In this document: in pieces, positions 31,938 to 63,525 of the stretch | Layout: each line of letters starts with the position of its first letter | Numbering within the stretch: the first letter of the stretch is position 1 | NCBI RefSeq assembly: GCF_003290025.1 | Contig: NZ_QNHG01000002.1 | Coordinates: forward strand, 694,941 to 758,940 | DNA: 64,000 nucleotides | Source of the DNA: Pseudogemmobacter bohemicus | GTDB lineage: Bacteria; Pseudomonadota; Alphaproteobacteria; Rhodobacterales; Rhodobacteraceae | Direction of reading: 5' to 3' | Notes under the pieces: generated by a model | What the model was told of the DNA's origin: nothing | Database searches by the model: none | The model's input: the letters and a program-made list of their open reading frames with translations, nothing else | Translations under genes and position numbers: made by a program

Positions 31938-31976
31938 ATTTTCGCGCGCGGCAACATGCCGCAAGACCAGGACGTG

Positions 31977-31990
31977 TTGACGCAGATCAA
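31977..31990. promoter_or_regulatory. FNR box 2, upstream of ccoN
   Basis: TTGAC-GCAG-ATCAA centred at 31983.5. A class II promoter would start near 32025, with candidate -10 sequences TATAGC or CACAAT between 32008 and 32018. The leader to the ccoN ATG would be about 70 nt. It lies 53 bp, about five helical turns, from box 1. Confidence 0.82.
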
Positions 31991-32093
31991 GGCGCGTGTC
32001 GCCGGACTATAGCACAATGCAGACAGTCCGGAGTCTGTCAGAGGGGAACCAACCCCGCTCAGTCGCCGAGGATATAAGACGAGGGAACGCCTT

Positions 32094-33698: not shown

Positions 33699-33709
33699 GC
33701 GAGGGTTAA

Positions 33710-34453
33710 ATGTCCATTCTCGACAAACATAAGAAAATCGAAACCCACGCGACACTTTTGATGGTGCTGGCTTTCCTGGTGGTGACCATCGGGGGCCTCG
33801 TGCAGATCGTGCCGCTCTTCTACCTGGAAAACACCATCGAGAAGGTGGAGGGGGTTCGCCCCTACACCCCTCTCGAACTGGCGGGCGCGCAGATCTACAA
33901 GAATGAGGGCTGCTATGGCTGTCACAGCCAGATGATCCGCCCGATGCGCGATGAGGTGACCCGTTACGGTCACTATTCTCTGGCGGCAGAGTCGATCTAT
34001 GACAAGCCGTTCCAATGGGGTTCCAAACGCACCGGACCGGATCTGGCACGGGTCGGCGGGCGCTATTCGGATGAATGGCATGTGGATCACTTTACCGATG
34101 CCAAACAGGTGGTGCCGGAAAGCCTGATGCCGCCCTATGGCTTCCTGAAAAACCGGGTGATCGACGGCAAATATATCGCCGATATGCTGGAAACCAGCCG
34201 CATCGTGGGTGTGCCTTACACCGATGACATGATCGCCAATGCCCAGGCCGATTTCCTGGCCCAGGCCAACCCGGATGCCGACAGTTCGGGTCTCGAAGAG
34301 CGCTATGGCGAGGCCGCTTTTGGCCGCGCGGTGAATGTGCGGAACTTCGACGGTTCGTCGAAGATCACCGAAATGGATGCGCTGATCGCCTATATGCAGG
34401 TCCTGGGCACGATGGTCGATTTCTCGACCTTCACCCCGGATCCGGCACGCTGA
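33710..34453 (+). CDS. ccoO: cbb3-type cytochrome c oxidase subunit II (mono-haem)
   Basis: A 247-residue membrane-anchored c-type cytochrome with one N-terminal helix (about 15-38, [20 protein letters not shown]) and the haem site CYGCHSQM (about 69-76). The CcoO landmarks [16 protein letters not shown] and [10 protein letters not shown] (Met ligand) are present. It passes electrons from CcoP to CcoN. It begins 11 bp after ccoN and precedes ccoQ by 13 bp. Confidence 0.97.
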
Positions 34454-34466
34454 GGAGGGGCAAGGA

Positions 34467-34673
34467 ATGGAACTCTATACTTTCCTGCGCGCAACTGCCG
34501 ACAGCTGGGGCCTGTTGTTCATGTTCCTGGTGTTTGTCGGCATCGGGCTCTGGGCCTTTCGGCCCGGCTCGAAGAAGACGCATGAGGACATTGCCAGCTC
34601 GATCTTCCGCAATGAGGACCGCCCCGCAGGCGATCCTGCGGATCCCCGTAACAGCCAGCGGACGGAGGCGTGA
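34467..34673 (+). CDS. ccoQ: cbb3-type cytochrome c oxidase accessory subunit CcoQ
   Basis: A 68-residue protein with one membrane helix (about 14-32, WGLLFMFLVFVGIGLWAF) and a polar C-terminal tail. Size, composition and position between ccoO and ccoP are those of CcoQ, which stabilises the complex. An AAGGA ribosome site precedes it. Confidence 0.93.
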   Translation: MELYTFLRATADSWGLLFMFLVFVGIGLWAFRPGSKKTHEDIASSIFRNEDRPAGDPADPRNSQRTEA

Positions 34674-34676
34674 TCC

Positions 34677-35555
34677 ATGTGCGCCAGGAAGATTACAAAG
34701 GTCGAGCATGAAGTTCCGACCACCGGCCATGAATGGGACGGGATCCAGGAATATGACAATCCGATGCCGCGCTGGTGGGTCTGGGTGTTCTATGTCACCA
34801 TCGTCTGGGGCATCGGCTATACCATCGCCTATCCGGCCTGGCCCCTGCTGACCCAGGCAACCCAGGGCGTGATCGGCAACAATGAACGTGCCAATGTCGC
34901 GGCCGAGATCGCCGACTGGAACGAGAGAAATGCCGGCATCCGCAACAAGCTGGTCGAAACCGATCTGAATGCGATCGGCGGCGATCCCGAGCTTGCGGCC
35001 TTTGCCGAAAATGCCGGCGCCGCAGTCTTCCGCACCAATTGCGTCCAGTGCCACGGCGCCGGTGCGGCGGGGGTGCAGAGCCTTGGTTATCCGAACCTGC
35101 TGGATGATGACTGGCTCTGGGGCGGCACGATGGAGGCGATCCACCAGACCGTCAGCCATGGTATCCGCAACACGACCGATGCCGATGCGCGTTACAGCCA
35201 GATGCCGGCTTTCGGTAAGGACCAGCTGCTTGAAAAGCCGCAGGTCGCCGAGGTGGTCGAATATGTGTTGCAGCTCTCGGGCCAGGAGCATGACGCCACG
35301 CTGGCCTCTGCCGGGGAGACGGTTTTCGCGGAAAATTGCGCGTCCTGCCATATGGCAACCGGCAAGGGCGACCGCGAACAGGGCGCGCCCAATCTGACCG
35401 ATGCGGTCTGGCTTTACGGCGGCTCGCGCGAGGCGATCGCCTATTCGGTGAACAATGCGCGCTTTGGTGTGATGCCCGACTGGGCGGGGCGGCTGTCTGA
35501 GGCCGATATCCGCGCGGTCAGCTGGTATGTCCACAGCCTTGGCGGAGGCGAGTGA
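34677..35555 (+). CDS. ccoP: cbb3-type cytochrome c oxidase subunit III (di-haem)
   Basis: A 292-residue di-haem cytochrome c with one membrane helix (about 37-58) and two haem sites, CVQCHGAG (about 122) and CASCHMATG (about 222). The N-terminal [18 protein letters not shown] is the CcoP signature before the helix. Met ligands lie in QMPAFG and the C-terminal VMPDWAG. It accepts electrons from c-type cytochromes such as the c552 encoded nearby. It is the last gene of the operon and is followed by paired terminator hairpins. In relatives ccoGHIS follows here; in this window it does not. Confidence 0.97.
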
Positions 35556-35561
35556 GACAGG

Positions 35562-35627: not shown

Positions 35628-35628
35628 C

Positions 35629-36324: not shown

Positions 36325-36350
36325 GGGCGCTCGTGCTTTCCGGCGGGCCG

Positions 36351-36402: not shown

Positions 36403-36408
36403 AGGGGA

Positions 36409-38396: not shown

Positions 38397-38429
38397 GGCT
38401 GGCGCTGCGCTTTTTGGCTGGCGTTGCGC

Positions 38430-38485
38430 GCGGGGGGCTTCGCGCCCCCCGGACCCCCCGCGGGATATTTAGGGACAGATGAAAG
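38430..38485. repeat. Palindromic intergenic repeat, copy 2 (urtC-urtB gap)
   Basis: Shares with copy 1 the CCCCCCGGACCCCC block, GGGATATTTA and GGACAGATGAAAG, in the same orientation. The flanking arm (GCGCGGGGGGCTTCGCGCCCCCC) forms a strong hairpin with a CTTCG-type loop. Confidence 0.7.
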
Positions 38486-38529
38486 AAGACAGGTTTGGGC
38501 CAGGGCGGGGAAGGCGATGCGGAACATGG

Positions 38530-40476: not shown

Positions 40477-40553
40477 AGAACGGAGATCCGGCTGCGGGGC
40501 GGCTGCGGGAGGGCCGGGGATCGGCCCTCCCGCGTGGTAAAACCGGTCAGGGA

Positions 40554-41852: not shown

Positions 41853-41914
41853 AGAATTCCTCACTGTTGGTTTGGGGTGATCGCCCGCTTTTCGCGGGTC
41901 TGTCGCTCAGGTGG

Positions 41915-43723: not shown

Positions 43724-43732
43724 TCTGATTCC

Positions 43733-47323: not shown

Positions 47324-47428
47324 GGTGCGGCCCCCGGGCGTTGTGCCGCACAGCATTCCCCGTCCCGGCGGCGCAGGGGCCACGGGAGAAGGGCGTGTCG
47401 TGATCGGCGGAATGGTGATCTGTCAGCA

Positions 47429-47448
47429 CTTTTGCAGTTGCAGCAAAG
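47429..47448. promoter_or_regulatory. Imperfect dyad in the uca-lysR divergent region
   Basis: CTTTTGC and GCAAAG form an imperfect inverted repeat within the 212-bp gap between the divergent uca and lysR genes. It is a candidate LysR operator by position; the T-N11-A core is not certain. Confidence 0.3.
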
Positions 47449-47535
47449 GCTGGCATGTTGCCCCGGGTTATGAAATTGCTAATAATTCACATAAGCGGTT
47501 CCGAAAATGTATCACCCTTGTCAAAGTCTTTCCGG

Positions 47536-49070: not shown

Positions 49071-51089
49071 ATGACGAAGGGTAACATCAGGCTGAAGCAC
49101 CGCGAGGGGTTTGAGGAACTCAACCGCTATTGGTCGCGCCTGGAGGATCTTGAGAAAGCGGTCGAGAATTTCTACGAATTCTCGCTGGCCTTCGTTGAGG
49201 AACCCATCGAGCGTGTGCTTGACAAGATCCGCTCGTTTGAACCCTCGGTCTCGGTGATCGGGCAGATCAAGGCCGGGAAAAGCACCCTGGTCAATGCGCT
49301 GATCGGGGAAACCGATCTCCTGCCTGCGGATGTGAATCCCTGGACCTCGGTGATCACCGCGCTGCATCTGAACAGCCGGCACCGGCCCTTCAACACCCGC
49401 GCGCTGTTCCGCTTTTTCGACCAGCATGAATGGGACCGTCTGGTGGCGACCGGCGGCCGCCTTGGCGAGATGGCCACCCGCGCCGGTTTCGAGCAGGAGG
49501 CCGATGAGGTCCGCGCCCAGGTCACCCAGATGCGCCAGACCACCGAGGCGCGGCTGGGGGCGGATTTCGGCACGATCATCGGGTCGAACCATTCCTTCCC
49601 GACGCTCGAAAAGGAAACCATCAACCGCTATATCTGCTATGGCGATCCGTCCGAGCTGAAAGACGGCTCGGGTGACGGCGTCTATGCCGATATCACCAAG
49701 ACCGCCGATCTCTATATCGAGGCCGAAGGTCTGCCCTCGGGGCTGTGCATTCGTGACACGCCCGGCGTGAACGACACCTTTATGATGCGCGAGCAGATCA
49801 CGCTGAACGCGATCCAGGACAGCCGGGTCTGCGTCGTGGTCCTGTCGGCGCATCAGGCGCTGTCGACGATGGATGTGGCGATCCTGCGCATCATCTGCGC
49901 CGTCGAGGCGCGCGAGGTGGTGATCTTCGTCAACCGGATCGACGAGCTGGCCGATCCGCAGGCCGAAGAGGAAAAGATTCGCGCCTCGATCCGCCGCACG
50001 CTGGCGCGGCTGGGGCTGGACCAGGACATCTCGATCCTGTTCGGCTCGGGCTATTGGGCGAATTATGCGATCTCGGGCGCGGGCACGCTGATGCCGCGCA
50101 GCCTCGAATCGCTGAAAAAGTTGAATCCGGGGCTGAAGGTTTCCGACCGCAATGCGCTGCGCGCGGCGGCGTTTGAATCCTCGGGCGTTCCGGCGCTGCA
50201 CCGGCTGATTGCACAGCGCGTGGTCGAAGGGCCGGGCGCGGCCTTCCTGAAAGACATCGAAGCCGAGATCAAGCTTATCATCGAGATGAGCGAGGCGGTG
50301 GATTCGGCGGCACGTCTGCGCGATGCCGGCATGGCGGTTCTGACCATCAGCCAGGAAGAGCTGATGATGAAGGTCGCGGATTCGCTGCAAAAGGTGATGG
50401 TCACCTTTGATGCGGCGGCGGTCGAACTGCGCGCCGGCCTGCATGAGCGCCTGACCCGAGCCCGCGATACCTTTGTGGATTCCGCCGTCGAGGCGCTGCA
50501 ATCGCATATCCAGGCCTTTGGCGAGACCGGCTCCTGGGATCACGATCCGACGGGCCTTCGGATGATGATGCGCACCGCCTATCTCTCGGCCTGTTCCAAA
50601 CTGCGGCGTGAGGGCGAGGTCAGTTTCGAATCCGTGCTGGATGCGGTGCAGGACGTGCTGCAAAACGAGCTGGGCGTCTATCGCAACGCCGCCAGCATCG
50701 ACTTCCCCGAACAGCAGCAGCATACCGCGCCAACCGTGCTGGCGCGCACGCTGTCGCTGGACCTACAGGGCACCTGGTGGCAACGGATCTGGGAGACCGG
50801 CGCGACCGGCAGGCTGGCCGGGCGCTTCCTGCGCTTTGGCGCAGCGAAGAAGGTCGAAAAGAAATACCGCGCGCTGATCGTCGAAGAGACCCAGCCGCTG
50901 ATCGACAATCTGCTGACGGATTTCTTTGATCCGGCGGTGGCGGCGACCCGTGAGATCGTCACCGGCTTTGCGCTTGACCAGAGCCGGTTCTGCGAGGCGC
51001 TGCTGGAGCGGCTGCATGAAAACGGGCCGGAGCCGATGGATGAGGGCAGCCTTGCCCGGTTGAGCGATGCCAGGAGGTTATCGGCATGA
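49071..51089 (+). CDS. Dynamin-like GTPase A1 (long type)
   Basis: A 672-residue GTPase. After a helical N-terminus (1-58) the G domain shows G1 GQIKAGKS (64-71), G2 Thr in NPWTS (92), G3 DTPG (229-232) and G4 NRID (288-291). The roughly 135-residue spacing of G2 to G3 and the helical C-terminal half (about 390-660) fit the dynamin/EHD-like superfamily rather than small GTPases. Near residue 564-574 the segment LQGTWWQRIW suggests a membrane-contacting tip. The start has AGAGG ahead. Its stop overlaps the B1 start. Closest relative in the window is A2 (54773-56920). Confidence 0.85.
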   Translation: MTKGNIRLKHREGFEELNRYWSRLEDLEKAVENFYEFSLAFVEEPIERVLDKIRSFEPSVSVIGQIKAGKSTLVNALIGETDLLPADVNPWTSVITALHLNSRHRPFNTRALFRFFDQHEWDRLVATGGRLGEMATRAGFEQEADEVRAQVTQMRQTTEARLGADFGTIIGSNHSFPTLEKETINRYICYGDPSELKDGSGDGVYADITKTADLYIEAEGLPSGLCIRDTPGVNDTFMMREQITLNAIQDSRVCVVVLSAHQALSTMDVAILRIICAVEAREVVIFVNRIDELADPQAEEEKIRASIRRTLARLGLDQDISILFGSGYWANYAISGAGTLMPRSLESLKKLNPGLKVSDRNALRAAAFESSGVPALHRLIAQRVVEGPGAAFLKDIEAEIKLIIEMSEAVDSAARLRDAGMAVLTISQEELMMKVADSLQKVMVTFDAAAVELRAGLHERLTRARDTFVDSAVEALQSHIQAFGETGSWDHDPTGLRMMMRTAYLSACSKLRREGEVSFESVLDAVQDVLQNELGVYRNAASIDFPEQQQHTAPTVLARTLSLDLQGTWWQRIWETGATGRLAGRFLRFGAAKKVEKKYRALIVEETQPLIDNLLTDFFDPAVAATREIVTGFALDQSRFCEALLERLHENGPEPMDEGSLARLSDARRLSA

Positions 51090-52240
51090 TGGGATTCTGG
51101 AACCGCAGAAAACCTGCCGAGCCGGTCCCCGAGCGTCCGGCCACCCCTGTGCAGCGCAAGCCGCGCATCCTGATCGCTGGTGAATTCAGCGCCGGAAAGA
51201 CCCATCTGATCAACGGGCTGGTGGGCGTGTCCGTGCTGCCCTCGAATGTCACCGCGACCGCCCTGCCGCCGGTCTGGCTGGTCCGGGGCGAGCCCGCACT
51301 GATCCGTGTCGGCTTTTCGGGCCGGGGCGAGCCGCTGGCTGATCTGAGCAATGTCGATCTGGAAAAGACCCAATATTGCGTGATGTCTAACCCGGCCCCG
51401 GTGCTGACCGGGATGGATATCATCGACACGCCCGGCAATTCCGATCCGAATATGGCGGCCGAGATCTGGCAGCGCATGCTGGCCTTTGCCGATGTCGTGA
51501 TCTGGTGCACCAATGCGACCCAGGCCTGGCGGCAAAGCGAAAAGGCGGTCTGGCAGGCGATGCCGGCCCGGCTGCGCCAGAATGCGACGCTGGTGGTGAC
51601 CCATGCCGATCTGCTGGGCAGCCCGGCCATGACTGATCGTGTGTTGCAGCGTGTGCAGCGCGAGGCCGGCACGTTTTTCGACCATTTCCTGATGGCCTCG
51701 CTTTTGCAGCGCGAGGATCTGGACCGGATCTCGGCCCATCTGCGCATGCTCAGCGGCACGCTGCGGCTTGACGGGGCGGCCAATGCGCTGATCAGCGATT
51801 TCGCAGCCTCGGTGCCGGTGCGCAGCACCACGCCTGCTCCGGAACCGGCAAGGCCCGCCGCCGCTGCGGCGCTGCCCGAGGCCGCGGATGAGGTGGCAGA
51901 AGACCTGAACCAGGATATCGGCCCCGATGCCCTGCAGGACCGCGCGCCCGGCGGCGCCAGGGTGCTGAAACTTGTCCGGACCCGTCGCCGGGAGGATGGC
52001 GGGAGCGGCAATTCCCCCGCTGCCCGGACCGGACCGGCTGCACCGGAGCCAGGCCGTGCCCGCCTGTTATGGGTCGAGCTGAGCAAGACCGTAGACCAGA
52101 GCGATCCGGAATCGCTGCTGGCCGCTGTGGATCACCTTATTGCCCGGCTGGATGCGCAACCCGCCCAGACCGGAACCCTTAATACTGTTTCTGCCAGCAG
52201 CGCCGGACATTCCGGTGCGGCGGCGGATGTTTATGAGTGA
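51086..52240 (+). CDS. Dynamin-like GTPase B1 (short type)
   Basis: A 384-residue protein overlapping A1 by 4 bp. G1 is GEFSAGKT (32-39), G2 Thr lies in VTATALPPVW, G3 is DTPG (114-117) and G4 reads THAD (172-175). It has only a short G2-G3 interval and no long helical stalk. After about residue 235 comes a low-complexity Ala/Pro-rich linker and a short C-terminal helix (about 330-360). It resembles B2 closely (PPVW, DTPG-x-SDPN, WCT-x-A-x-QAWR-x-SE). The translational overlap implies a complex with A1. Confidence 0.82.
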   Translation: MMGFWNRRKPAEPVPERPATPVQRKPRILIAGEFSAGKTHLINGLVGVSVLPSNVTATALPPVWLVRGEPALIRVGFSGRGEPLADLSNVDLEKTQYCVMSNPAPVLTGMDIIDTPGNSDPNMAAEIWQRMLAFADVVIWCTNATQAWRQSEKAVWQAMPARLRQNATLVVTHADLLGSPAMTDRVLQRVQREAGTFFDHFLMASLLQREDLDRISAHLRMLSGTLRLDGAANALISDFAASVPVRSTTPAPEPARPAAAAALPEAADEVAEDLNQDIGPDALQDRAPGGARVLKLVRTRRREDGGSGNSPAARTGPAAPEPGRARLLWVELSKTVDQSDPESLLAAVDHLIARLDAQPAQTGTLNTVSASSAGHSGAAADVYE

Positions 52241-52249
52241 GGAGCTGTC

Positions 52250-54373
52250 ATGCAAATTGCACCCAACCAGCGCCAGGAACTGAATTTTCTGCGGGATTCC
52301 CTTGACGGGATCGACAAGGTCGTCAGCCGCGAGATGCGCGCCGGTTTTCGCGTGTTGCGGGAACGGCTGGACAACTGGGCTGCGAAAGTCGCGGTGATCG
52401 GCCAGGTCAAGGCGGGTAAATCGACCTTCCTGAACTCGTTCCTTTACAGCCATGATTTCCTGCCCTCGGATGTGAACCCCTGGACTTCGGTGGTCACCAA
52501 TATCCGGGTGAACCTGCCCGGCGATCCGGTGATGGGCGCAAAGTTCGAATTCTTCGGCGAGGCGGACTGGAACGAGATCGTCAATGGGGATTCGCGCATC
52601 CGCAAGCTGACCGAACAGCTGCTGCCGGGCTTTGACACCCATCTTTTGCGCGAACAAAGCGAGCAGATGCGCCAGCGCGCCGAAGAGCGGCTGGGCAAGC
52701 GCTATGCCGATCTGTTGGGCACCACCCATGATTACGACTATATCTCTTCGGAACTGCTGAAGAGCTATGTCTGCGCCGGTGCCGAAGATGAGACTGATCC
52801 GACGGCGGCGGGGCGTTATGCCATGCTGACCAGGGTGGCCAATGTCTATATGCGGCTGCCGGAATTCCAGGTGCCGACTATCATCACCGACACGCCCGGC
52901 GTGAATGACCCCTTCCTTGTCCGTGATGAATTCACCTGCCGCAGCCTCGACAAGTCGGATGTGTTCGTCATCGTGCTTTCGGCGCATCAGCCGCTGACAG
53001 ATGTGGACATCGCGCTGATCCGCATTCTGGCGAAACAGGACAACAAGGATGTTCTGGTCTTTGTGAACCGCATCGACGAGCTGGACGATTACGACACCGA
53101 TGTGCCGCGCGTGATCGAGGATGTCTCGCAGCGTCTGTGCGGCGCGATCCCGGATATTGATTTCACCATCGTGGCCGGGTCGGCCTGGATGGCGGATCTG
53201 ACGCTCCAGGACGGGCCCGAGGCCGAGGCAGACCGCGCCGCCCTGGATGACACCCGCCTCGCCCGCTATATCCATTCGCGCTATGGCTATCTGCCCGATG
53301 ACCGCTGTGAGCGTCTGATGCTCGCCTCTGGCATGCGCGACGTGAAACTGGCGCTGTCGCAGCTGATCGACTCGGGCGTTGGCCGCTCGCAAATGGCACA
53401 GATCAAGGCGGATATCCGGGCCGAGCTGAACGGTGCGCTGTTCGTGGCGCGGCGCGAACGCGCCTCGCTGCAAACCCAGATGGGCAGCGTCAACAGCGAG
53501 GTCGCCAATATGGCGATCGAGGATCTCCAGGTCGAGATCGACGCCATCCGCAAGGTGCAATCCGAGCTGGAGGGCCATGTCGAGAATGCCGAGGCCCAGA
53601 TCGAGAAAGTGCTGACCAAGGCCTGGTCGAGGCTGGAAACCCGGCTGATCGGCATGATCGAAAGCTTTATCGAGGACCAGAAGCCGGAATTCGAGGCGCG
53701 GATCATGGCCGGCAAGCTGCGTGGCGAGACCGCGAAGGCGATGGAAATCGACCTCTCGCCGCTGCAAAAGGTGATGGAGCGCGAGCTGACCTCGGCCTGG
53801 AAGAACTCGCGTGCGGGGACCGATGTGGTGCTTTCGAACGGGCTGTCCTCGTGCCAGCAGACGATCAAAGACCGCTTTCAGGAGCGGACCGAGGGCATCG
53901 ACCTTTCCGACCTGCCTTATGACGAATTCGCCTCGACGCTGACGCTGGCGAAACGGTCGCTCAGGGTGAATTTCATCAGCAATCGCAGCTGGGCCTTCTG
54001 GCGTAAGCCCGGGATCAATGTCGAGAAAAGCCTTGCCGCGCTGAGGATGATCGCCGCCGAAGAGCTGCGCCCGCCGATGGAAAAGCTGCTTGCCGCCTTC
54101 AACGAGGCCCAGGTGGAACGCGCCGGCGCCGGGATCGACCGGATCCGGGTGATGCTGAGGATGTTCGAGGTCTCGCTGAACGAACGCGTCCACCGGCTGA
54201 AGAAGGACATGGTGGAATTCGAGATGGTGGTGAACGATCCCGATTTCCGCCGTCGCATCGTGCATCGGCTGCAAAGCCAGATGGAGGTGCTGGAGCGCCG
54301 TCTGATCAACCTGTCCGCCGTGGAAAGCGCGCTGGCCCAGGCGGATGTGACACGGGCGGCCGCTGCCGCCTGA
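52250..54373 (+). CDS. Dynamin-like GTPase C (long type, divergent)
   Basis: A 707-residue GTPase. G1 is GQVKAGKS (51-58), G2 Thr lies in NPWTS (79), G3 is DTPG (214-217) and G4 NRID (273-276). The stalk region is strongly helical, with likely coiled coils at about 400-470 (ERASLQTQMGSVNSEV, VQSELEGHVENAEAQIEKV) and near 640-690. In place of GTWW it has SNRSWAFWRKPG near residue 580. It starts 9 bp after B1 with GGAG. A 400-bp gap follows, so it probably ends the first transcription unit. Confidence 0.84.
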   Translation: MQIAPNQRQELNFLRDSLDGIDKVVSREMRAGFRVLRERLDNWAAKVAVIGQVKAGKSTFLNSFLYSHDFLPSDVNPWTSVVTNIRVNLPGDPVMGAKFEFFGEADWNEIVNGDSRIRKLTEQLLPGFDTHLLREQSEQMRQRAEERLGKRYADLLGTTHDYDYISSELLKSYVCAGAEDETDPTAAGRYAMLTRVANVYMRLPEFQVPTIITDTPGVNDPFLVRDEFTCRSLDKSDVFVIVLSAHQPLTDVDIALIRILAKQDNKDVLVFVNRIDELDDYDTDVPRVIEDVSQRLCGAIPDIDFTIVAGSAWMADLTLQDGPEAEADRAALDDTRLARYIHSRYGYLPDDRCERLMLASGMRDVKLALSQLIDSGVGRSQMAQIKADIRAELNGALFVARRERASLQTQMGSVNSEVANMAIEDLQVEIDAIRKVQSELEGHVENAEAQIEKVLTKAWSRLETRLIGMIESFIEDQKPEFEARIMAGKLRGETAKAMEIDLSPLQKVMERELTSAWKNSRAGTDVVLSNGLSSCQQTIKDRFQERTEGIDLSDLPYDEFASTLTLAKRSLRVNFISNRSWAFWRKPGINVEKSLAALRMIAAEELRPPMEKLLAAFNEAQVERAGAGIDRIRVMLRMFEVSLNERVHRLKKDMVEFEMVVNDPDFRRRIVHRLQSQMEVLERRLINLSAVESALAQADVTRAAAAA

Positions 54374-54772
54374 CCGGATGGCGCCCGATGATGGGGCCGA
54401 AAAGCGGGACGGATCCGGCAAGGGTCCGTCCCCATCATTTCAGTCGCAATCTCTGATTGAAATTCTGAAAAATCATTACCTTAAGCGCCACCGAAATCTG
54501 AATCCGGAACATGGAAAATCCACCTCAGGTCCACAAATTTTCCACAAAGGCGGGACAGTTTTGCAAAGTACGAGGAAGAGGTCATCGGACCGGTTCCTCC
54601 GGTTGTGTTATGTGCTGATTAACGAGCGGGTTGTGCTCTGACTGATCGTCCAGACAGGCCGGAAGACCGTCTGATCCCTATCCCCCGGGAAATGCTGGCA
54701 GGATGCGACTCTTTCGGGGGCAACTGCCATTTCGACACTGCGATCAATGCTCCCGCAAAGGGGAATGGGAAC
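54374..54772. other. Gap between GTPase C and A2: hairpin and candidate second promoter
   Basis: No convincing ORF. The perfect 8-bp stem GGGACGGA/TCCGTCCC (54406-54432), nested in ATGATG/CATCAT arms, follows gene C and may terminate it, though without a T run. An AT-richer section (54445-54560) could hold a promoter for A2-B2. A small ACCGG-TTCCT-CCGGT hairpin lies near 54592. Confidence 0.4.
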
Positions 54773-56920
54773 ATGAAGAACACGAAAACCGCCGCAAAAG
54801 GCGCATCCGCCGCTGCATCAGGCGGGCCGGTGCGGCCGCGCAACCTCGACCTGCTTAGCCAGGGCAGCGAGGTGATTCAGCCCTTCTTCCACACGCTGAA
54901 CACATTGCGGGATGCGGTTCTGACCCAGGCGGGCGAGGCTGACAGCGGCATGAGCCGCAAGCTGATGGCGCTGGCGAAGAAGATTGACAGTTTCGAGGCC
55001 TCGGTCACTCTGGTGGGCCAGGTCAAGGCCGGCAAGACCGCGCTGGTCAACGTGCTCAGCGGCCAGGCCGGATTGCTTCCGACCGATGTGAATCCCTGGA
55101 CATCGGTTGTGACCTCGCTGCATGTCAATTCAAAGCAGGCCAGTACGAGGACCTGCGCTCGGTTCAAGTTCTTTGACAACAGCGAATGGGACAAGATGGT
55201 GCGTGGCGGCGGCCGGATCGGCGAGCTGGCCCGTCGTGCCGGCGCGGAAGACGATCTGGAAAAGCTGCGCGGCCAGATCGACCAGATGCGCGAAACCGCA
55301 CGCCGCCGCCTCTCGGCGAATTACGAGAAATTGCTGGGGAAAACACACAGATACAACTATGTCGACCGTGAGCTGATCGAGCGCTATGTCTGCCTTGGTG
55401 ATCCTGATGAGCTGGCGCTGAACCCGAAAAGCCAGCAGGGCAAATTCTCGGATATCACCAGATCGGCGGATGTCTGGCTGGATGTGCCGCAGCTTTCCGG
55501 CAGCTATCTGTTCCGCGACACACCCGGCGTGAACGATACATTCCTTGTGCGCGAACAGATCACCATCCAGGCGCTGCGCGGGTCCAGGGTCTGCGTCGTG
55601 GTCCTTTCGGCGCATGAGGCGCTGAACAGCACTGATCTTGCGCTGGTGCGGCTGATTTCCAACTATGAATCGCGCCAGGTCATTTTGTTCGTCAATCGCA
55701 TCGACGAGCTGGAATCGCCCTATGAACAGGTTGCCGAGATCTATGAAAGCATCAACAGGACGCTGCGCCCCTATGGCCGCCTGCGCGATGTGAAGGTGAT
55801 TTTCGGCTCTGCCCGCTGGGCCGAAATGGCGCTGAACGGCGATATTTCGGATCTGGATGATGATGCCGAATCGGCGCTGGCCGACTGGGCGCGGAATTGC
55901 GATGTCGGCGCCGATCCGCGCCAGATGCCGCATCTGTGGAAGCTCTCGGGCATCCCCGAGCTGATGCGCAGCATCAATGAGCGTATCGTCGAACGGTCCG
56001 GCGCGCGCCATCTGGCAGCGGTCAGGGCGAGTCTGGCCAATATCTCTGCCGCTATGGCTGCCCGAGAGGCGCTGGCCAGCGGGCGTGATGCGGCGGGGCG
56101 GCTGGCCAGCGTCGATCCGGCACAGCTGCGCGACGATCTGGGCGGCCTTGGCACCCGGGCGCGGCACAAGCTGGAAGAGACACTGTCACGGCTGGAAAGC
56201 GACCTCACGCCGGCGCTGAGCCAAGTGCAGACCGATTACGTTACCCGCGCCACCGATGCACTGGTCGACCATCTGCGCAGCGCGGGCCGTGACGAGAGCT
56301 GGACCTTCAACTCCTCGGGGCTGCGGCTGGTTCTGCGCACCACCTGCGACCGTTTCTCGGCCCGGGCGCGCGCCCAGGTGGAATCGGTTTTCCACGGCGC
56401 GGCCAGCGATTTCAGCGGTGTCTATCTGGGCACGCTGGGCCTGAGGATCGACGGCTTCCGGATCGAGCCGCCCCAGGTGCCGAAAGCGCCGCCGCCGGTC
56501 GTTCTGGGCAAGACCATCGCCATTGATCTGGGCGGCACCTGGTGGAAACGCTGGTGGCAGCGCCGCAAGAATCCGGCCACCCTGGCGGATGAATATCGCA
56601 GCCTGATCGAGGCCGAGATCGGCTCGGTGATCGGCGATCTGAAGCAAAGCCAGTTCACCGATGTTTTCGGCGAGATCCGCCGGATCTTTGATGAGTTCCT
56701 GGCCGAACAGACGGAAACCCTGCTCGACCTGGTGGAGAGCAGCCCGGATGCGGGTGATGGCGCGGCGGATTCCGATGAATTCGGCGCGATGATTGCCGAA
56801 ATGCTGGAGTCGATCCGGCTGGAAGAGGCCCCGGAGGAAGAGGGCGAAGAAGAAGAGGGGCGCGACCCGGCCATCAGTGGCGATACATTCGAACTCCGCA
56901 AAGCCGTGGGAGGCTATTGA
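54773..56920 (+). CDS. Dynamin-like GTPase A2 (long type)
   Basis: A 715-residue paralogue of A1. G1 is GQVKAGKT (82-89), G2 Thr lies in NPWTS (110), G3 is DTPG (249-252) and G4 NRID (308-311). It shares with A1 the segments RDTPGVNDTF, SRVCVVVLSAH, SW-x5-GLR-x3-RT and the tip DLGGTWWKRWWQRRKN (near 610-625). The N-terminus has a 25-residue Ala/Lys-rich tail, and the C-terminus is very acidic (EEAPEEEGEEEEG). ATG 54773 follows GGGGAATGGGA; an upstream in-frame ATG at 54692 gives an LAGC motif without a hydrophobic leader and is rejected. The stop overlaps the B2 start. Confidence 0.85.
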   Translation: MKNTKTAAKGASAAASGGPVRPRNLDLLSQGSEVIQPFFHTLNTLRDAVLTQAGEADSGMSRKLMALAKKIDSFEASVTLVGQVKAGKTALVNVLSGQAGLLPTDVNPWTSVVTSLHVNSKQASTRTCARFKFFDNSEWDKMVRGGGRIGELARRAGAEDDLEKLRGQIDQMRETARRRLSANYEKLLGKTHRYNYVDRELIERYVCLGDPDELALNPKSQQGKFSDITRSADVWLDVPQLSGSYLFRDTPGVNDTFLVREQITIQALRGSRVCVVVLSAHEALNSTDLALVRLISNYESRQVILFVNRIDELESPYEQVAEIYESINRTLRPYGRLRDVKVIFGSARWAEMALNGDISDLDDDAESALADWARNCDVGADPRQMPHLWKLSGIPELMRSINERIVERSGARHLAAVRASLANISAAMAAREALASGRDAAGRLASVDPAQLRDDLGGLGTRARHKLEETLSRLESDLTPALSQVQTDYVTRATDALVDHLRSAGRDESWTFNSSGLRLVLRTTCDRFSARARAQVESVFHGAASDFSGVYLGTLGLRIDGFRIEPPQVPKAPPPVVLGKTIAIDLGGTWWKRWWQRRKNPATLADEYRSLIEAEIGSVIGDLKQSQFTDVFGEIRRIFDEFLAEQTETLLDLVESSPDAGDGAADSDEFGAMIAEMLESIRLEEAPEEEGEEEEGRDPAISGDTFELRKAVGGY

Positions 56921-57864
56921 TGCGCAACAGCGAGACCCAGGAGCGGTACGTCACCGAAGCGCAGCTGAACCGTCTGTCGGACTGGAGCAGGCGCAAACCG
57001 GTCATTGCCCTGATGGGGGAATTCAGCGCCGGCAAATCGACACTGATGAATCTGCTGATCGGGCAGAATATCCTGCCGACCCAGGTGACCGCGACGCAGA
57101 TGCCGCCGGTCTGGATCCGCTATGGGTCCGGCGCGCCAAGTCTGGTCGATCACGCGGGCAAACATCATCCGGTCAACCTGGGCGACCGGGCCTCCATTCC
57201 GGTCAACCGCACCAAATATATCCGGCTTTATTGCGAAGCCGATATCCTGAAACAGTGCGATCTGATTGATACGCCCGGTATTTCAGACCCGAATATCCCG
57301 GTGGAAAACTGGATCCGCACCATTCGCTATGCCAATGCGGTGATGTGGTGCACCCATGCCTGTCAGGCCTGGCGCGAAAGCGAGCGCGGCGCCTGGGAGG
57401 CGCTGCCGAAACGGCTGCGTCAGACCTCGATCCTGCTGGCCACCCGCAAGGACAAGATCACCTCGGAGCTGGATCGCAGCAAGATCGGGCGCCGGCTGGA
57501 GCGTGAGACCCAGACGCTGTTCTCCGCGCGGATGTTCATCTCACTGACCAATGCGATCCGCGCCCGCCAGGCCGGCGACAGCGCGGGCTGGGCGGAAAGC
57601 GGCGCCCAGGAATTCTCGGAAATGCTGGCGAGGATCGTCGAAGGCATTTCGGTGCAGCGCAGCGTCCTGCTGGAACGCTATGTCCCGGGCGCCAACAATG
57701 CGAAACCGCAGGGCACTGAACGGGCGGCTGCGCTGATCCCGGATACGGCGATGGCCGAAGAGGGGCTCTGTAGCGCAAACAGCGTCAGGGGTTCATCTGG
57801 TGAACCCGGCATGACAGCCGATCTGCATGAAGAGGCCGCCACCCTCGACCTTGTAGGGGGGTAG
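56920..57864 (+). CDS. Dynamin-like GTPase B2 (short type)
   Basis: A 314-residue paralogue of B1, starting at the ATG that overlaps the A2 stop (TGATG). G1 is GEFSAGKS (33-40), the G2 Thr is in VTATQMPPVW, G3 is DTPG (117-120) and G4 TRKD (175-178). WCTHACQAWRESERGAWEALPKRLRQ aligns with B1. After the G domain (to about 240) there is only a short polar tail, so it lacks the B1 low-complexity linker. The repeated A-then-B overlap strongly suggests an A2-B2 complex. No membrane helix is seen. Confidence 0.82.
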   Translation: MRNSETQERYVTEAQLNRLSDWSRRKPVIALMGEFSAGKSTLMNLLIGQNILPTQVTATQMPPVWIRYGSGAPSLVDHAGKHHPVNLGDRASIPVNRTKYIRLYCEADILKQCDLIDTPGISDPNIPVENWIRTIRYANAVMWCTHACQAWRESERGAWEALPKRLRQTSILLATRKDKITSELDRSKIGRRLERETQTLFSARMFISLTNAIRARQAGDSAGWAESGAQEFSEMLARIVEGISVQRSVLLERYVPGANNAKPQGTERAAALIPDTAMAEEGLCSANSVRGSSGEPGMTADLHEEAATLDLVGG

Positions 57865-58141: not shown

Positions 58142-58675
58142 ATGGGGAGAACTGTGACCGCTGGTCACAGTTTCCGCTCACCAGGACATAGCTGCCCTGA
58201 CCAGCATGACTATGGCGCAGGCTATCCCGTCCAGGATTATCTGTTCGGCCCGCCGCCTGCTAAGGTCTTGTATAAAATCACAAATCAGCCTTTCCGGCTG
58301 GCCGAGAAGTTCATAGTCCGCGCGCTGGAGTCCTCGCTTGATGGCGTGGCGATGCTGGTGCGCACCTCGTTCCTTGAGGGACAAAGCCGCTACGCGAGCC
58401 TGTTCAAAAAACAACCGCCGACCCATGTGCTCCAGTTCGCCGAGCGCGTGATCATGCATAAGGGCAAGATGCTCGATCCTGACGTGCCAGTGCGCACCTG
58501 GAGCAAGAAGCTTGGTGAGTGGGTCATGCGCAAGCCGTCGACCGCGACCTCCTATTGCTGGCTCGTCTGGATTCGGAACAGCTCCGGCCCGTCGCGGATC
58601 ATCTGGATCCCGCCTTGCCGCAAGCAGCTGACGAAGCCGGGTGATTACCTGCTGCCGGAGGTGCTGGCGGCATGA
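58142..58675 (+). pseudogene. 5'-truncated phage-type SAM-dependent DNA methyltransferase
   Basis: From about 58197 the frame reads DYGAGYPVQDYLFG, then ITNQPFRLAEKFI, LVRTSFLEGQSRYASLF and WIPPCRKQLTKPGDYLLPE, the C-terminal two-thirds of a methyltransferase family common in alphaproteobacterial prophages. The N-terminal SAM-binding part (normally CGxGHM...SDIHDYG) is missing: sequence before DQHDYG is unrelated. The catalytic NPPF motif reads NQPF. The remnant is therefore very probably inactive, though the frame is open from ATG 58142. Its stop overlaps the next gene (ATGA). Confidence 0.72.
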
Positions 58676-59055
58676 GCCCGGATCTCGACGGCCTGCCGGA
58701 TTCGCTCGTAGACCTCGCCGAGGCCCTCGGCCTGCGCATTGCGCTGGTTTTCATGCGCGAGTTCGGCGGCCGCGAGATGCGGATCCCGAAAAAGCCCGGC
58801 GCTGATCACCCGATCCTCAGGGCGCTTGGTGATGACGACGGCCGCGCCCTGTGCCACTACTTGGCAGATCAGACGGTTTACGTGCCGCATTGCCGTGCCA
58901 CTGGACGCCGCCGCGCCGTGCTGGATATGATCTCGGCCGGGAAGACCCAGGGCAGGATTGCCCGCGAGCTGAAGCTGTCCGAGCGCCATGTGCGCCGGAT
59001 CGCCAATACCGCCCACTCTGAAACTCCTGATCTTTTCTTTGGTCTGGAAGACTGA
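58672..59055 (+). CDS. Mor transcription activator family protein (Mu-like phage)
   Basis: A 127-residue protein. The N-terminal dimerisation part (LPDSLVDLAEALGLRIALVFMREFGGREMRIPKK) and C-terminal HTH (GKTQGRIARELKLSERHVRRIAN, about 89-111) match the Mor/C family, which activates middle or late promoters of Mu-type phages. It overlaps the methyltransferase stop. A dyad CCGGAC-AGAT-GTCCGG begins right at the end of the gene (59056-59071), where a Mor-dependent promoter would sit. Confidence 0.75.
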   Translation: MSPDLDGLPDSLVDLAEALGLRIALVFMREFGGREMRIPKKPGADHPILRALGDDDGRALCHYLADQTVYVPHCRATGRRRAVLDMISAGKTQGRIARELKLSERHVRRIANTAHSETPDLFFGLED

Positions 59056-59071
59056 CCGGACAGATGTCCGG
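59056..59071. promoter_or_regulatory. Dyad between mor-like gene and endolysin
   Basis: A perfect 6-bp inverted repeat CCGGAC/GTCCGG with a 4-bp spacer, placed like the Mor-bound dyad of the Mu middle promoter. It could equally be a small hairpin. Confidence 0.3.
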
Positions 59072-59124
59072 ACCAATCCGCGCATGTCACGCGCGATGGT
59101 GCGAGCGATCCTCAGGAGCGCTCC

Positions 59125-59997
59125 ATGTCCAAAGCCGCCACATCCCTCATCCAGACCGGCCTGCGCGATGCTGGCTTTTCGCCAGGCGTGATCGACGGTT
59201 TCTATGGTCCGAAAACCGCCAATGCCGCGCAGGCCTGGCTGCTACGCGGCAGGATCGGCCCTGACACTGCCGTCGCTCTGATCCAGTCTGGCCTCCGGGA
59301 TCTCGGGTATGCCCCCGGCGCGATTGATGGTCGGTTCGGCCCAAAGACCAATTCGGCTGCGCAAGCCTGGCTGATGGCGCGCGGCGTGTCTGCCCGTGCG
59401 GTCCTCCTCCCGACAACCAGCTCCATGATTTATCAGGGCAGCGCCCGTTACCCGGTCGAGGAGATCTGCGTCCATACCAGCGCCACCTTGCCGGACTGGA
59501 TGGAGGCGAGTTCGATCCAGGCGCAACGGGCAGAGATCCGGCGCTGGCATGTGTCGCCGAAACCCATCGGCGAAGGCTGGAACGACATCGGCTACCACCA
59601 TCTGGTTTTCCGGAAAGGTGCGACCATCGCGGGCCGTGCGGAGACCGTGATCGGCGCGGGCGTCAGGAACCACAATCAGGGCGTTATCCATACACTAACC
59701 CTGACGATCCGACTACCAGGTACGGAGCCTCGCTGGGCGCTCCGAGCAGCTACACCGGAGGGCGAATCGCGCAGTACGGTGACGGCCGCGATGATGCCGC
59801 CAACAACTCAGCTGCGATCCGGTTGGCCTGGAGCCAGATCCGTGGCCGGTATGCCTGGCAGGATGGCCGCAGCAGCAATCGGGATATTTACGGCGTCTCC
59901 GGCACCGGCTATTCCGCGATCACACAGCGATATCTCTGGGCAAACGGCCTCTATATTGCCGATGGCGCGGCGGTCGGAAACACCGTCAACCGCGTGA
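59125..59997 (+). pseudogene. Endolysin (two peptidoglycan-binding-like repeats + amidase), 3' part replaced
   Basis: Residues 1-34 and about 48-83 are two near-identical repeats (LIQTGLRDAGFSPGVIDG and LIQSGLRDLGYAPGAIDG, each ending FGPKT/YGPKT...AAQAWL). The amidase-2-like domain follows (EEICVHTSATLPDWM, WNDIGYHHLVFRKG, IGAGVRNHNQG). After NHNQG near 59690 homology stops and the frame runs on through an unrelated sequence to 59997, while a different frame takes over. The amidase C-terminus with its last zinc ligand is lost, so the enzyme is probably dead. An AGGAG ribosome site precedes ATG 59125. Confidence 0.75.
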
Positions 59998-60398
59998 GGT
60001 CCTGCACCAATCTGGCAGCCATCACGGATGCGAATTTCGGCCCTGCCGTGCGCGGGGATCGCTGGCTTTACATCCAACCATCAGCCGGGGGCTTCACCGG
60101 CGCGGTCTGCACCACCGCCGGCACTCTGGGCAGCACGGCAGTCATCAAGCAATTCGGCGAGGACCGGGAGGTCTATATCCGGCTCAACAACATCGAGGCG
60201 AACAATCACGGCGTCCCGGCACTGGCGCTGTTTCGCGGGTTCATCTCGCGCGCGGCCTTTGAGGCTGGCGCCCATTACGTCTGGGAGGCCAGCGTTGAAT
60301 TTGCCTCTGACGTGACGCTGCCGCTCTGGCCGCAGGCCTATGCCGCCCTCGTCGAGGTGCATGGGCTGGAGGCCGTTGAATCGTCAACCTTGCCATGA
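59697..60398 (+). pseudogene. 3' fragment of a prophage structural-type gene
   Basis: Frame 3 is open from before 59697 and reads NPDDPTTRYGASLGAPSSYTGGRIAQYGDG, then a long aromatic- and Gly-rich sequence (YAWQDGRSSNRDIYGVSGTGY, RWLYIQPSAGG, YIRLNNIEANNHGVPALALFRGF) to the stop at 60398. No natural start is evident; a TTG at 59823 is internal. I do not recognise the family; composition and place suggest a phage tail or late protein. The join to the endolysin frame near 59690 indicates one deletion that fused the two genes' remains. Confidence 0.5.
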
Positions 60399-60754: not shown

Positions 60755-61096
60755 CGCCAGCCATGAGACGGCCCTGACCCTGCCGGCAGCGGCGTTCGCC
60801 ACCTGCGCCGTGGGCGACGCGCCGATGCCGGGGCATTTGCCGGTCTCACCGATGCTGCCGGAAGATAAAGCGACGGGCTTTGCCGCCGGGCCCGGCGGCA
60901 GGGATGCGCTGGATGTCGGGTTCGGACAGCCGCTTTGGGATTTCGGGCTGACGCGGGATCCGCAAGCCGGGCAGCTGCCGCCAATGATGCAGAATATGAC
61001 GCCGGTGGTGACGCCGCCGGCGATACCCGATATTCTGTCCGGGGCCATGATGGCCGGGGCGCAACCCAACCCAGCACAGTCAGTCAGGGGAATGCG
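60755..61096. other. Region upstream of the GFA-family gene
   Basis: A frame runs from GTG 60810 to a stop at 61098-61100 that overlaps the GFA start (ATGA). It encodes 96 residues rich in Met, Pro and Gly with no known domain; upstream codons in frame (ALTLPAAAFATCAVG) resemble the end of a signal peptide, but no start codon is present. It may be a decayed gene truncated by the IS/prophage events. Nothing else is supported. Confidence 0.3.
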
Positions 61097-61738
61097 ATGA
61101 AAGACGAGACCGCCGGGGCAGGCAAATGCCCGTTTGGCTTTGGCGGTGAGGCAAGGCCGGTCACGGTGTCGACCCCGAAACCCGCCGGAGCCGGCAGCGC
61201 AGCGGTGGCCGAGGCCGATGGCTACCGCCATCTGTCGACGGCCCCGGGCACGGCCCGTGACAAGCTGCCGGACCTGTTGCGAGATCCGGTGCCCGAGGGC
61301 GAGAACGGTCTTGCCACCGGGCGCTGCCTTTGCGGCAAGGTGAGCTTCCGCTCGAACCAACCCTTCTCGATGGTGTTTGCCAGCCATGATGCGGTGTCGC
61401 GCAAACGCTCGGGCGGGGTGGCGCTGACCATCATGCTGCGCGCCGGCAGCACCGCCTTCGCCGGCTGGGACAATCTGGTGCATTACCAGGTCTCGGAGCG
61501 CGAGGTCTCGTGCTTTTGCAGCACCTGCGGCACGCCGGTTCTGACCCGCTATCTGGCGCCGGATGTGATGTCCGGGATGATCTCGCTTTCGGCCGGGCTC
61601 CTGGACCGGACCGGGGGGCTGCGCCTTGCCGCCGATATCAGCCATGATGAGAAACCGGATTTCTACGCCTTTGAGGGCGAGCGCCGGGTGATCAACACTG
61701 CCGAGCTGGAGGCGATGTTCGCCGGGCGCGGGCGCTGA
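61097..61738 (+). CDS. GFA/CENP-V-fold zinc-binding protein
   Basis: A 213-residue protein whose second half (about 75-205) has the GFA fold cysteines: GRCLCGKVSF and CFCSTCGTPVLTR (two CxC/CxxC pairs), with the third-site residues likely around the HDAVSRKRSGG stretch. The N-terminal 70 residues are a Gly/Pro/Ala-rich extension beginning MKDETAGAGKCPFGFGG. The ATG follows AGGGG. The family includes a proposed S-(hydroxymethyl)glutathione synthase, but most members have no established activity. The FNR box of ccoG begins 11 bp after its stop. Confidence 0.8.
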   Translation: MKDETAGAGKCPFGFGGEARPVTVSTPKPAGAGSAAVAEADGYRHLSTAPGTARDKLPDLLRDPVPEGENGLATGRCLCGKVSFRSNQPFSMVFASHDAVSRKRSGGVALTIMLRAGSTAFAGWDNLVHYQVSEREVSCFCSTCGTPVLTRYLAPDVMSGMISLSAGLLDRTGGLRLAADISHDEKPDFYAFEGERRVINTAELEAMFAGRGR

Positions 61739-62094: not shown

Positions 62095-63525
62095 GTGTCT
62101 ACACCAGAAGCCAGCCCGCCGAGCCTTTATGCGGCGCGTGAGCCGATCTTCCCCCGCCGGGTCAAAGGCCATTTTCGCACCGCGAAATGGTGGATCATGG
62201 CGATTACGCTGGGCATTTATTACATCACCCCCTGGATCCGCTGGGACCGCGGCCCGAACCTGCCCGATCAGGCCGTTCTGCTCGACCTGGCGAACCGCCG
62301 TTTCTTCTTCTTTATGATCGAGATCTGGCCGCACGAATTCTACTTTGTCGCGGGCCTGTTGATCATGGCAGGGCTGGGGCTGTTTCTGTTCACCTCGGCC
62401 GCCGGACGGGTCTGGTGCGGCTATGCCTGCCCGCAAACCGTCTGGACCGACCTTTTCATCCTGGTCGAGCGATGGATCGAGGGCGACCGCAATGCGCGGA
62501 TTCGCCTGCATCGCAGCAAGTGGACAGGAGAAAAGATCCGCAAATCCGCGATCAAATGGGGCACCTGGTTTCTGATCGGCCTTGCCACCGGCGGCGCCTG
62601 GATCTTTTACTTCACCGATGCGCCCACGCTTTTGCGCGACCTGGTGACGCTCAGCGCCCATCCTGTCGCCTGGATCACCATGCTGATCCTGACCATGACC
62701 ACCTTCATTTTCGGTGGCTTCATGCGTGAACAGGTCTGCATCTATATGTGCCCCTGGCCGCGTATTCAGGCCGCGATGATGGACGAAGACACCATCACCA
62801 TCGCTTACCGCGACTGGCGGGGCGAGCCGCGCGGCAAACCTGCGGCCGACAAGGGCGACTGCATCGACTGCATGGCCTGTGTGAACGTCTGCCCGATGGG
62901 GATCGACATCAGGAATGGCCAGCAGCTGGCCTGTATCACCTGCGGGCTCTGCATTGATGCCTGCAATGATATGATGGACAGGATCGGCAAGCCGCGCGGG
63001 CTGATCGACTATATCGCCCTGACCGATGAGGCGCGCGAGCGTAAGGGTGAACCTGCCATCCCGGCCTGGAAACATATTCTGCGCCTGCGCACCATCCTTT
63101 ACACGGCGCTCTGGGCCGGGGTGGGGGTCGCACTGGTGGTGGCGCTGTTCCTGCGCAGCCCGATTGATGTCAATGTCACGCCGGTCAGGAATCCGACCTT
63201 TGTGACGCTTTCGGATGGCACCATTCGCAACACCTATGAGATCCGTCTGCGCAATATGGAAGGCGAGGCCCGCTGGTTCAGCTTTAGCGTCGAGGATCCG
63301 TCGCTGGCTCTGTCGGTCGAAGGCGGCGAGAATGGCCGTACGCTGGTGGCCGCGAATGAAACGGCGCATGTGCGGCTTTATGTGACGGCGGCGCCGGGCA
63401 CGCCCGCCGCAACCACGCAACGCAGCGATATCCGGCTCTGGATCGAGGGTGATCCGGTGCCGGGCGTCAAAGACAGCAAAGACCGGGTGTCGAAGGATAC
63501 CGTCTTCAACGGCAAGGGGAACTGA
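62095..63525 (+). CDS. ccoG: cbb3 oxidase assembly protein CcoG (RdxA/FixG family polyferredoxin)
   Basis: A 476-residue membrane protein. Helices lie at about 35-55, 85-108, 160-182, 195-215 and 340-360. CGYACPQTVWTDLFILVERW follows helix 2, and a two-cluster ferredoxin domain (about 258-305) reads CIDCMACVNVCP...CITCGLCIDACN. The C-terminal part is a periplasmic Ig-like FixG domain (about 365-470). CcoG reduces copper for CuB insertion into CcoN. GTG 62095 has GGAG upstream. It would normally follow ccoP directly; here it is 26.5 kb away with its own FNR box. Confidence 0.95.
   Translation: MSTPEASPPSLYAAREPIFPRRVKGHFRTAKWWIMAITLGIYYITPWIRWDRGPNLPDQAVLLDLANRRFFFFMIEIWPHEFYFVAGLLIMAGLGLFLFTSAAGRVWCGYACPQTVWTDLFILVERWIEGDRNARIRLHRSKWTGEKIRKSAIKWGTWFLIGLATGGAWIFYFTDAPTLLRDLVTLSAHPVAWITMLILTMTTFIFGGFMREQVCIYMCPWPRIQAAMMDEDTITIAYRDWRGEPRGKPAADKGDCIDCMACVNVCPMGIDIRNGQQLACITCGLCIDACNDMMDRIGKPRGLIDYIALTDEARERKGEPAIPAWKHILRLRTILYTALWAGVGVALVVALFLRSPIDVNVTPVRNPTFVTLSDGTIRNTYEIRLRNMEGEARWFSFSVEDPSLALSVEGGENGRTLVAANETAHVRLYVTAAPGTPAATTQRSDIRLWIEGDPVPGVKDSKDRVSKDTVFNGKGN

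Follow-up and report, generated by a model that had tools for sequence, protein, structure and literature searches.

Eroded dynamin-type GTPase gene array at a cco site in Pseudogemmobacter bohemicus, related to kinase-linked dynamin operons of the Rhodobacteraceae

The window analyzed here, a 64,000-nucleotide stretch of contig NZ_QNHG01000002.1 of Pseudogemmobacter bohemicus, carries five dynamin-type GTPase genes in tandem on the forward strand, in the order A1-B1-C-A2-B2. Three encode long proteins (LONG): A1 (49071..51089, +, 672 aa), C (52250..54373, +, 707 aa) and A2 (54773..56920, +, 715 aa). The other two encode short proteins (SHORT), B1 (51086..52240, +, 384 aa) being the partner of A1 and B2 (56917/56920..57864, +, 314 aa) that of A2. 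Read from its first ATG, the A2 frame spans 54692-56920 (742 aa), and the 715 aa protein starts at the ATG at 54773; B2 has 315 aa from the TTG at 56917 and 314 aa from the ATG at 56920. The paired genes overlap at their stop and start codons, through ATGA in A1/B1 and TGATG in A2/B2. All five proteins pass the gathering score of Pfam Dynamin_N with E-values of 1e-9 to 2e-15 (A1 2e-14, B1 1e-9, C 2e-15, A2 7e-10, B2 7e-12), so the GTPase assignment is not a matter of chance. G1 (GxxxAGKS/T) and G3 (DTPG) are present in each, and G4 reads NRID in A1, C and A2, THAD in B1 and TRKD in B2. The tandem order, the overlaps and these three motifs agree with an original prediction made from the letters of the window; it had also given G2 to all five proteins, which could be upheld for LONG, where the threonine of NPWTSV is invariant across 14 aligned rows.

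C and A2 align with A1 along their length. When a profile of 14 LONG proteins was compared with the sequences in the PDB, the matches were BDLP (3e-13), Cj-DLP1 (4e-11) and the mitofusin Fzo1 (7e-7), and also the GTPase Der (3e-8), as a G domain would predict. An AlphaFold2 model of A1 has a mean predicted local distance difference test score (pLDDT) of 75.5 and a predicted template modelling score (pTM) of 0.68. In this model the G domain is followed by helices at residues 373-418, 428-483, 494-534 and 592-650, that is, by a predicted helical neck and trunk. A fold search with the model retrieved BDLP (2j69, 1.8e-9) and IniA (6j73, 2.8e-9), with Cj-DLP, SynDLP, LeoA and mitofusins also among the matches. 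Profile search and structure prediction thus place LONG with BDLP, IniA and Cj-DLP, in keeping with its original description as dynamin-like. Pattern searches found G1, the DTPG of G3, and G4 in 72 of 72 LONG rows, and a loose pattern for a tip motif matched 65 of the 72. A1 is not an equivalog of CrfC, DynA or LeoA; its scores lie far under the respective NCBIfam cut-offs (42 against 1146 bits, 16.5 against 1600 and 12.1 against 325).

LONG relatives occur in 48 of 198 genomes of the family Rhodobacteraceae (the window genome counted) and in 7 of 13 genomes of the genus. In a survey of 289 genomes of the class, at least 4 of which belong to the family and for each of which few candidates were scored, LONG was found in two, both family members (thresholds: E 1e-10 for protein C, 1e-15 for the LONG profile). 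The relatives of protein C include those of Paracoccus sp. IB05 (96%), Pseudogemmobacter hezensis (90%), Mesobacterium pallidum (68%) and Rhodobacterales HKCCE2091 (60%).

The SHORT proteins have a different layout. In B1 and B2 a G domain of about 220 residues is followed by a low-complexity linker, and no helical stalk was seen in the sequence, the G domain stopping near residue 220. SHORT is therefore filed, on its sequence, among the dynamin-type G-domain proteins and not among the full dynamins. B1 ends in an LW..DxLIxxL motif, read by eye; the B2 of the window lacks this C-terminal motif, and B2 relatives of 487 and 521 aa carry it. Across SHORT, G1 was counted in 59 of 59 proteins and DxPG in 50 of 59. 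In several of the regions surveyed below, each identified by an L number, the short GTPase is part of a natural fusion: with the small protein RB1 in L052, L058 and L083, and, in the case of B3 (the SHORT partner of C in relatives), with a PTP-type phosphatase (PTP) and the small protein RB2 as one protein in L075.

Trees of both protein types were rooted at the midpoint, the LONG tree being built by a quick method. In the LONG tree the A1 clade (9 loci) is sister to 33 LONG proteins encoded in kinase operons, with a Shimodaira-Hasegawa-like approximate likelihood ratio test (SH-aLRT) support of 98; A2 falls in another group (97) and C in a third (99). In the SHORT tree the B1 clade comprises the same nine loci and is sister to the SHORT proteins of the kinase operons (100/96), and the positions of B2 and B3 match the LONG tree, the wider B2 group being less supported (92/81). 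LONG and SHORT distances correlate at 0.88 over 55 adjacent pairs, a value reached by 0 of 2000 permutations. Because A1 and A2, and likewise B1 and B2, sit in separate supported clades, they are best regarded as old paralogues from different LONG-SHORT clades. The original prediction was right in calling A1/A2 and B1/B2 paralogous, but its duplication of a coupled A-B pair is contradicted, since A1/B1 and A2/B2 fall in different old clades.

Comparison with relatives suggests that the window array is what remains of a larger island. Regions that combine A1-B1 with C make up a type distinct from the kinase operons described below. In P. hezensis (L070, of which L103 is a duplicate record) ten genes follow one another in the order A1-B1-C-B3-A2-B2-PTP-RB2-ATPase-GFA8, gene orders here and below coming from hidden Markov model passes over stop-to-stop frames. 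The order in M. pallidum is A1-B1-C-B3-A2-B2-GLB13-GFA8, and L073 and L077 carry A1-B1-C-B3. (L071 and L102, and L072 and L074, are also duplicate records.) Since C-B3 is seen in P. hezensis, M. pallidum, L073, L077 and L075, C normally has a SHORT partner, lost in the window, and is not the unpaired third long type originally proposed. Among the five arrays of the genus, A1-B1 is intact in all five. C is whole in four, L101 having it in two frames; intact B3, PTP, RB2 and ATPase genes occur in P. hezensis only. A full A2-B2 pair is kept by P. hezensis and, with B2 shortened, by the window; in the other three arrays the pair is cut or degraded. The array is thus eroded in four of five genomes, each differently, and exactly five intact GTPase genes are found in the window genome only. 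The original prediction had staked itself on the five genes being conserved together; as a unit of exactly five intact genes they are found in none of the other four genus arrays, which counts against that prediction by its own standard. In Paracoccus sp. IB05, A2 (L071 11562-13607) keeps its frame, with a 29-column gap and changes at conserved G-domain residues.

Traces of the missing genes remain in the window. The 318 bp between C and the first start of the A2 frame contain a 55-bp remnant of the 3' end of B3 (54494..54548, +), which matches P. hezensis B3 at 84% (E 8e-9, or 2e-11 in a smaller comparison); the match at the protein level, 17 aa, is weak (E 0.44). The loss of B3 is shared by Paracoccus sp. 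IB05. A remnant of the 3' end of the ATPase-PTP gene (60837..60980, +; tblastn 44% over 48 aa, E 1e-4; blastn 60905-60960, E 5e-5) sits, as 48 codons, directly before GFA8 (61097..61738, +), the last island gene, which encodes a CPFG-motif GFA-domain protein (Pfam GFA 2e-9) and whose start was set by comparison in a frame that opens at 60935. These remnants indicate that the window has probably lost B3, PTP, RB2 and the greater part of the ATPase gene by deletion. A prophage remnant (58142..60398, +) occupies the position that PTP, RB2 and most of the ATPase gene hold in P. hezensis. It follows B2, as originally noted, and comprises a methyltransferase fragment (PHROGs 2e-29, part of the model), a late activator (1e-23) and an endolysin (1e-17). 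It is present in one of five arrays, there being no room for it in L100-L103, and the view of the array as prophage cargo was rejected on this count. The functional link to the remnant that had been suggested is not supported, for the same reason: the other four arrays have no room for it, and the remnant fills deleted sequence.

The genus array is located between ccoNOQP and ccoGHIS. The window has ccoNOQP, which in relatives borders this site on the left, at 31944..35552 (+; tblastn 77-92% to the L071 genes), and the right border, ccoG, at 62095..63525 (+; TIGR02745 over cut-off). In six of the seven array-less genus genomes read, out of eight in the set, about 180-640 bp separate ccoP from ccoG; the seventh (L113) yielded ccoG without ccoP. 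Because ccoP adjoins ccoG in array-less genomes, the array is best read as an insertion at the cco site. The window has about 13 kb extra between ccoP, which ends at 35552, and the array. The stretch 35553-48380 is absent from the arrays L070, L071, L100, L101 and L103 and holds two genes named from their sequence, one urea-carboxylase-like (43733-47383) and one of LysR type (47455-48435).

Elsewhere in the family, LONG often lies in operons with signaling genes. Fifty-nine LONG-bearing regions were read, the window and the duplicate L074 not being counted; they were chosen for LONG from one draw of family genomes, so that all counts are conditional on this. A Ser/Thr kinase, an FHA protein and a PP2C phosphatase occur together in 31 of the 59, and at least one of the three occurs in 36, a minimum because some kinase-less regions (L047, L049, L069 and L080) end at a contig edge near LONG. 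The usual order is kinase, FHA, PP2C, X, LONG, SHORT, RB2/RB3 and K7. For example, the L076 operon (2318-12567) has Pfam matches to Pkinase (9e-32), FHA (9e-9) and PP2C (1e-11), and its K7 (266 aa) has no Pfam match. Of the 36 kinase-type regions, 34 have RB2 or RB3 (counted together, as each model also matches the other) and 33 have K7. X is a degenerate GTPase, with G1 in 30 of 39 and DxPG in 7 of 39; its model also matches SHORT proteins, and regional X counts were not used. The LONG clade sister to A1 is found in 33 of the 36 regions. In L087, L088 and L089 the kinase genes stand beside an A2-group LONG, and the kinase link is therefore not confined to one clade. In five of the 36 (L035, L036, L038, L039 and L081) the kinase-dynamin operon lies directly upstream of mreB.

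The 23 kinase-less regions have associates of another kind. GLB13, a protein with Fer2, FAD, NAD and Bac_globin domains, is present in four and GFA8 in seven, and both are absent from the 36 kinase regions; queries with GLB13 gave only domain-level matches in the window genome. In L086 (13727-15884), and also in L066, L074 and L091, the ferredoxin-FAD/NAD reductase-globin protein adjoins the CPFG-GFA protein. The PTP-RB2 cassette includes an ABC-like ATPase gene (L070 17615-18916, L075 3815-5200, L086 8086-9303), the L086 protein having a weak C-terminal match to DSP-type phosphatases (E 0.004). PADLOC models link the L070 ATPase to mad3 (1e-12) and the L076 kinase to PD-T4-6 (1.5e-47) and mad6 (3e-43); the likeness to MADS parts extends over mad3, mad6 and mad8. 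RB1 and RB2/RB3 were considered as one family and not joined, the profile comparison giving a probability of 3.5.

A second dynamin locus (G000:C2:1246946-1249060; L005 7538-11850) lies about 0.5 Mb from the array in the window genome. It consists of RB1, a LONG gene C2 that is 59% to C, and an overlapping SHORT gene whose product has a long acidic tail. This unlinked RB1-C2-B3 locus is intact in all five array-bearing genomes of the genus, and its RB1 has ratios of nonsynonymous to synonymous substitution (dN/dS) of 0.08-0.10. For the array proteins, dN/dS against other genus genomes is 0.06-0.10 (C), 0.12-0.22 (A1), 0.25-0.28 (A2), 0.36-0.43 (B1) and 0.34 (B2, a single comparison), values consistent with purifying selection on the GTPase genes of the window that is weaker on SHORT. 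C, the most constrained, keeps values of 0.06 and 0.09 when compared with two genomes that have likewise lost B3; it may therefore use the B3 encoded at the second locus, or work without a partner.

Taken together, it is probable that the window holds an eroded inserted island of three heterotypic pairs acting as regulated membrane dynamins. The ancestral island would have encoded A1-B1, C-B3 and A2-B2 together with a PTP-type phosphatase, the small RB2, the ATPase and the GFA-domain protein. Dynamins work through G-domain dimers and stalk assembly. LONG would be a dynamin of the BDLP/IniA kind, its G domain followed by a helical stalk whose tip carries a W- and R-rich loop, probably a point of membrane contact. 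SHORT, a G domain with a flexible linker, most likely binds its LONG through the G domain of the latter and sets the GTP cycle of LONG, which could time lattice formation. The linker may carry regulators, because the short GTPase is found fused to RB1 (L052, L058, L083) and to PTP and RB2 (L075). In most relatives the kinase, FHA and PP2C proteins would supply a phospho-switch, and RB proteins, phosphatases and the kinase set would decide when LONG assembles on the membrane, an assembly that would protect or reshape it under stress. Gene content, pairing in gene order and in the trees, erosion, the empty site and the predicted fold of LONG are observations, while membrane binding, the heterotypic complex, phospho-control and the physiological role are inferences. 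By analogy with the role reported for DynA (PMC8844932), we favor protection or reshaping of the membrane under envelope stress over a dedicated defense role. A wider reading, which we advance as plausible but tentative, is that these genes form an undescribed machine restricted to the Rhodobacteraceae, a stalked dynamin with a stalkless GTPase partner under the control of kinase, FHA, PP2C, degenerate GTPase and RB proteins, and that the window represents a derived multi-pair island branch in which a tyrosine/dual-specificity-type phosphatase has replaced the kinase set. If so, a bacterial dynamin would be controlled by phosphorylation in the manner of eukaryotes.

Several observations weigh against this picture of regulated membrane dynamins. 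The A1 model was built from 14 sequences and scores a TM of 0.45-0.53 against BDLP and IniA, values that differences at the hinges or errors of the model may explain. Inside the model, confidence is lowest at the tip loop (low pLDDT), and no segment of LONG stands out as transmembrane-like, its top 19-residue hydropathy (1.97) lying inside the G domain. At 28 kinase loci LONG correlates with X at 0.815 as compared with 0.785 with SHORT; because X tracks LONG as strongly as SHORT does, the agreement of trees and distances appears to reflect common inheritance more than contact. The relation of the RB proteins to Roadblock is also weak: two of nine RB1 members match Pfam Robl_LC7 (best E 0.0058), the only two PDB matches of RB1 are Roadblock proteins at E 0.24 and 0.39, and a single-sequence model of RB1 is uninformative (pLDDT 33), while none of 26 RB2/RB3 members matches Robl_LC7 and their PDB search has no Roadblock match. 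Queries with RB2/RB3, PTP and PP2C found no match in the window genome, in a search that had no positive control and did not include the kinase, and the phospho-control genes may be gone from this genome.

A rival explanation is an anti-phage system that holds the membrane or delays lysis during infection, like B. subtilis DynA or Eleos, a defense name for Leo-type genes. Among PADLOC models, the LONG proteins scanned match LeoA/LeoBC most strongly (best E per protein 8e-8 to 3e-14), LONG genes are patchily distributed (48 of 198 family genomes) and inserted at a conserved site, and the mad3, PD-T4-6 and mad6 matches point in the same direction or may reflect broad kinase and ATPase families. 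For DynA, the available text of PMC8844932 reports a role in membrane protection and a delay of phage lysis. The Leo matches are, however, weak or partial, and membership in LeoABC/Eleos was rejected on them and on the NCBIfam LeoA score given above; the operons upstream of mreB occupy a seemingly housekeeping site, and the prophage remnant adjoins one array in five. A defense role is unlikely, though it deserves some weight.

Neutral decay without present function would account for the loss of B3, PTP, RB2 and the ATPase gene, for the damage to A2-B2 in three of five arrays and to C in one, and for the weak constraint on B1 and B2. Against it stand the intact A1-B1 of every array, the low dN/dS of C even between B3-less genomes, and the unlinked RB1-C2-B3 locus, intact throughout; decay as a full account is improbable. 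A function in redox or nitrosative stress at the membrane, suggested by the position of the array between cbb3 oxidase operons and by the GLB13 (ferredoxin-reductase-globin) and GFA8 genes of kinase-less relatives, is more doubtful still. Within the family, ccoG lies less than 10 kb from a LONG gene in one of 48 genomes, that of the window; in two others it is 31 and 34 kb away, and five have no ccoG match. A general link to cbb3 oxidase biogenesis was accordingly rejected, ccoG being near LONG in that genome and beside the genus arrays; most probably the cco site simply marks where the island inserted in this genus, and GLB13 gives only domain-level matches in the window genome. A local tandem A-B duplication with a novel third long partner, as first proposed, is scarcely credible despite the paralogy of A1/A2 and B1/B2, because both trees, unless they are seriously in error, contradict it and C has a SHORT partner in relatives.

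To our knowledge, the activation of bacterial dynamins is still largely an open question. The recurrent operon of this family, in which a dynamin pair is joined by a kinase, a phosphatase and an FHA adaptor, offers a direct and genetically simple route to testing phospho-control, and the same operon allows the role of a stalkless G-domain partner to be asked. The erosion series within one genus, in turn, reveals which parts stay together.

Heterotypic bacterial dynamin pairs as such are already known. No counterpart of the organization was found among described bacterial dynamin systems, as had been proposed, and no publication on stalkless dynamin partners or on such signaling operons was found among the matches listed; a kinase-FHA-PP2C-dynamin operon is probably absent from print. 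A Ser/Thr kinase, PP2C and FHA set also forms the PpkA/PppA/Fha phospho-switch of type VI secretion, but here the set is linked to dynamin genes; the shared neighbor families inspected gave no hint of secretion, no search having been aimed at secretion genes. BDLP1 of Nostoc and IniA of mycobacteria resemble LONG in its predicted fold (G domain, helical stalk and putative tip loop), BDLP being the best PDB match by both profile and fold and IniA the second by fold. They differ in that identity in the fold alignments is 14-15%, LONG has no clear hydrophobic paddle, and LONG is accompanied by a stalkless GTPase partner and, in many operons, by signaling genes. DynA consists of two dynamins fused in one protein, according to the available text of PMC6104087; its NCBIfam model scores far under cut-off here. 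LeoABC/Eleos resembles the present genes in its tandem dynamin genes accompanied by LeoC, a G-domain protein of only 206 aa (PMC4159319). LeoC belongs to a split dynamin that carries a membrane anchor; the G domain of SHORT is complete and lacks an anchor. Cj-DLP1 and Cj-DLP2 of Campylobacter, in the portion of PMC6104087 consulted, likewise form a side-by-side heterotypic pair, and Cj-DLP1 is the second-best sequence match of the LONG profile. Both Campylobacter chains have 614-732 residues, whereas the partner here is a stalkless G domain with a linker, and, unlike in Campylobacter, up to three such pairs are found in one array.

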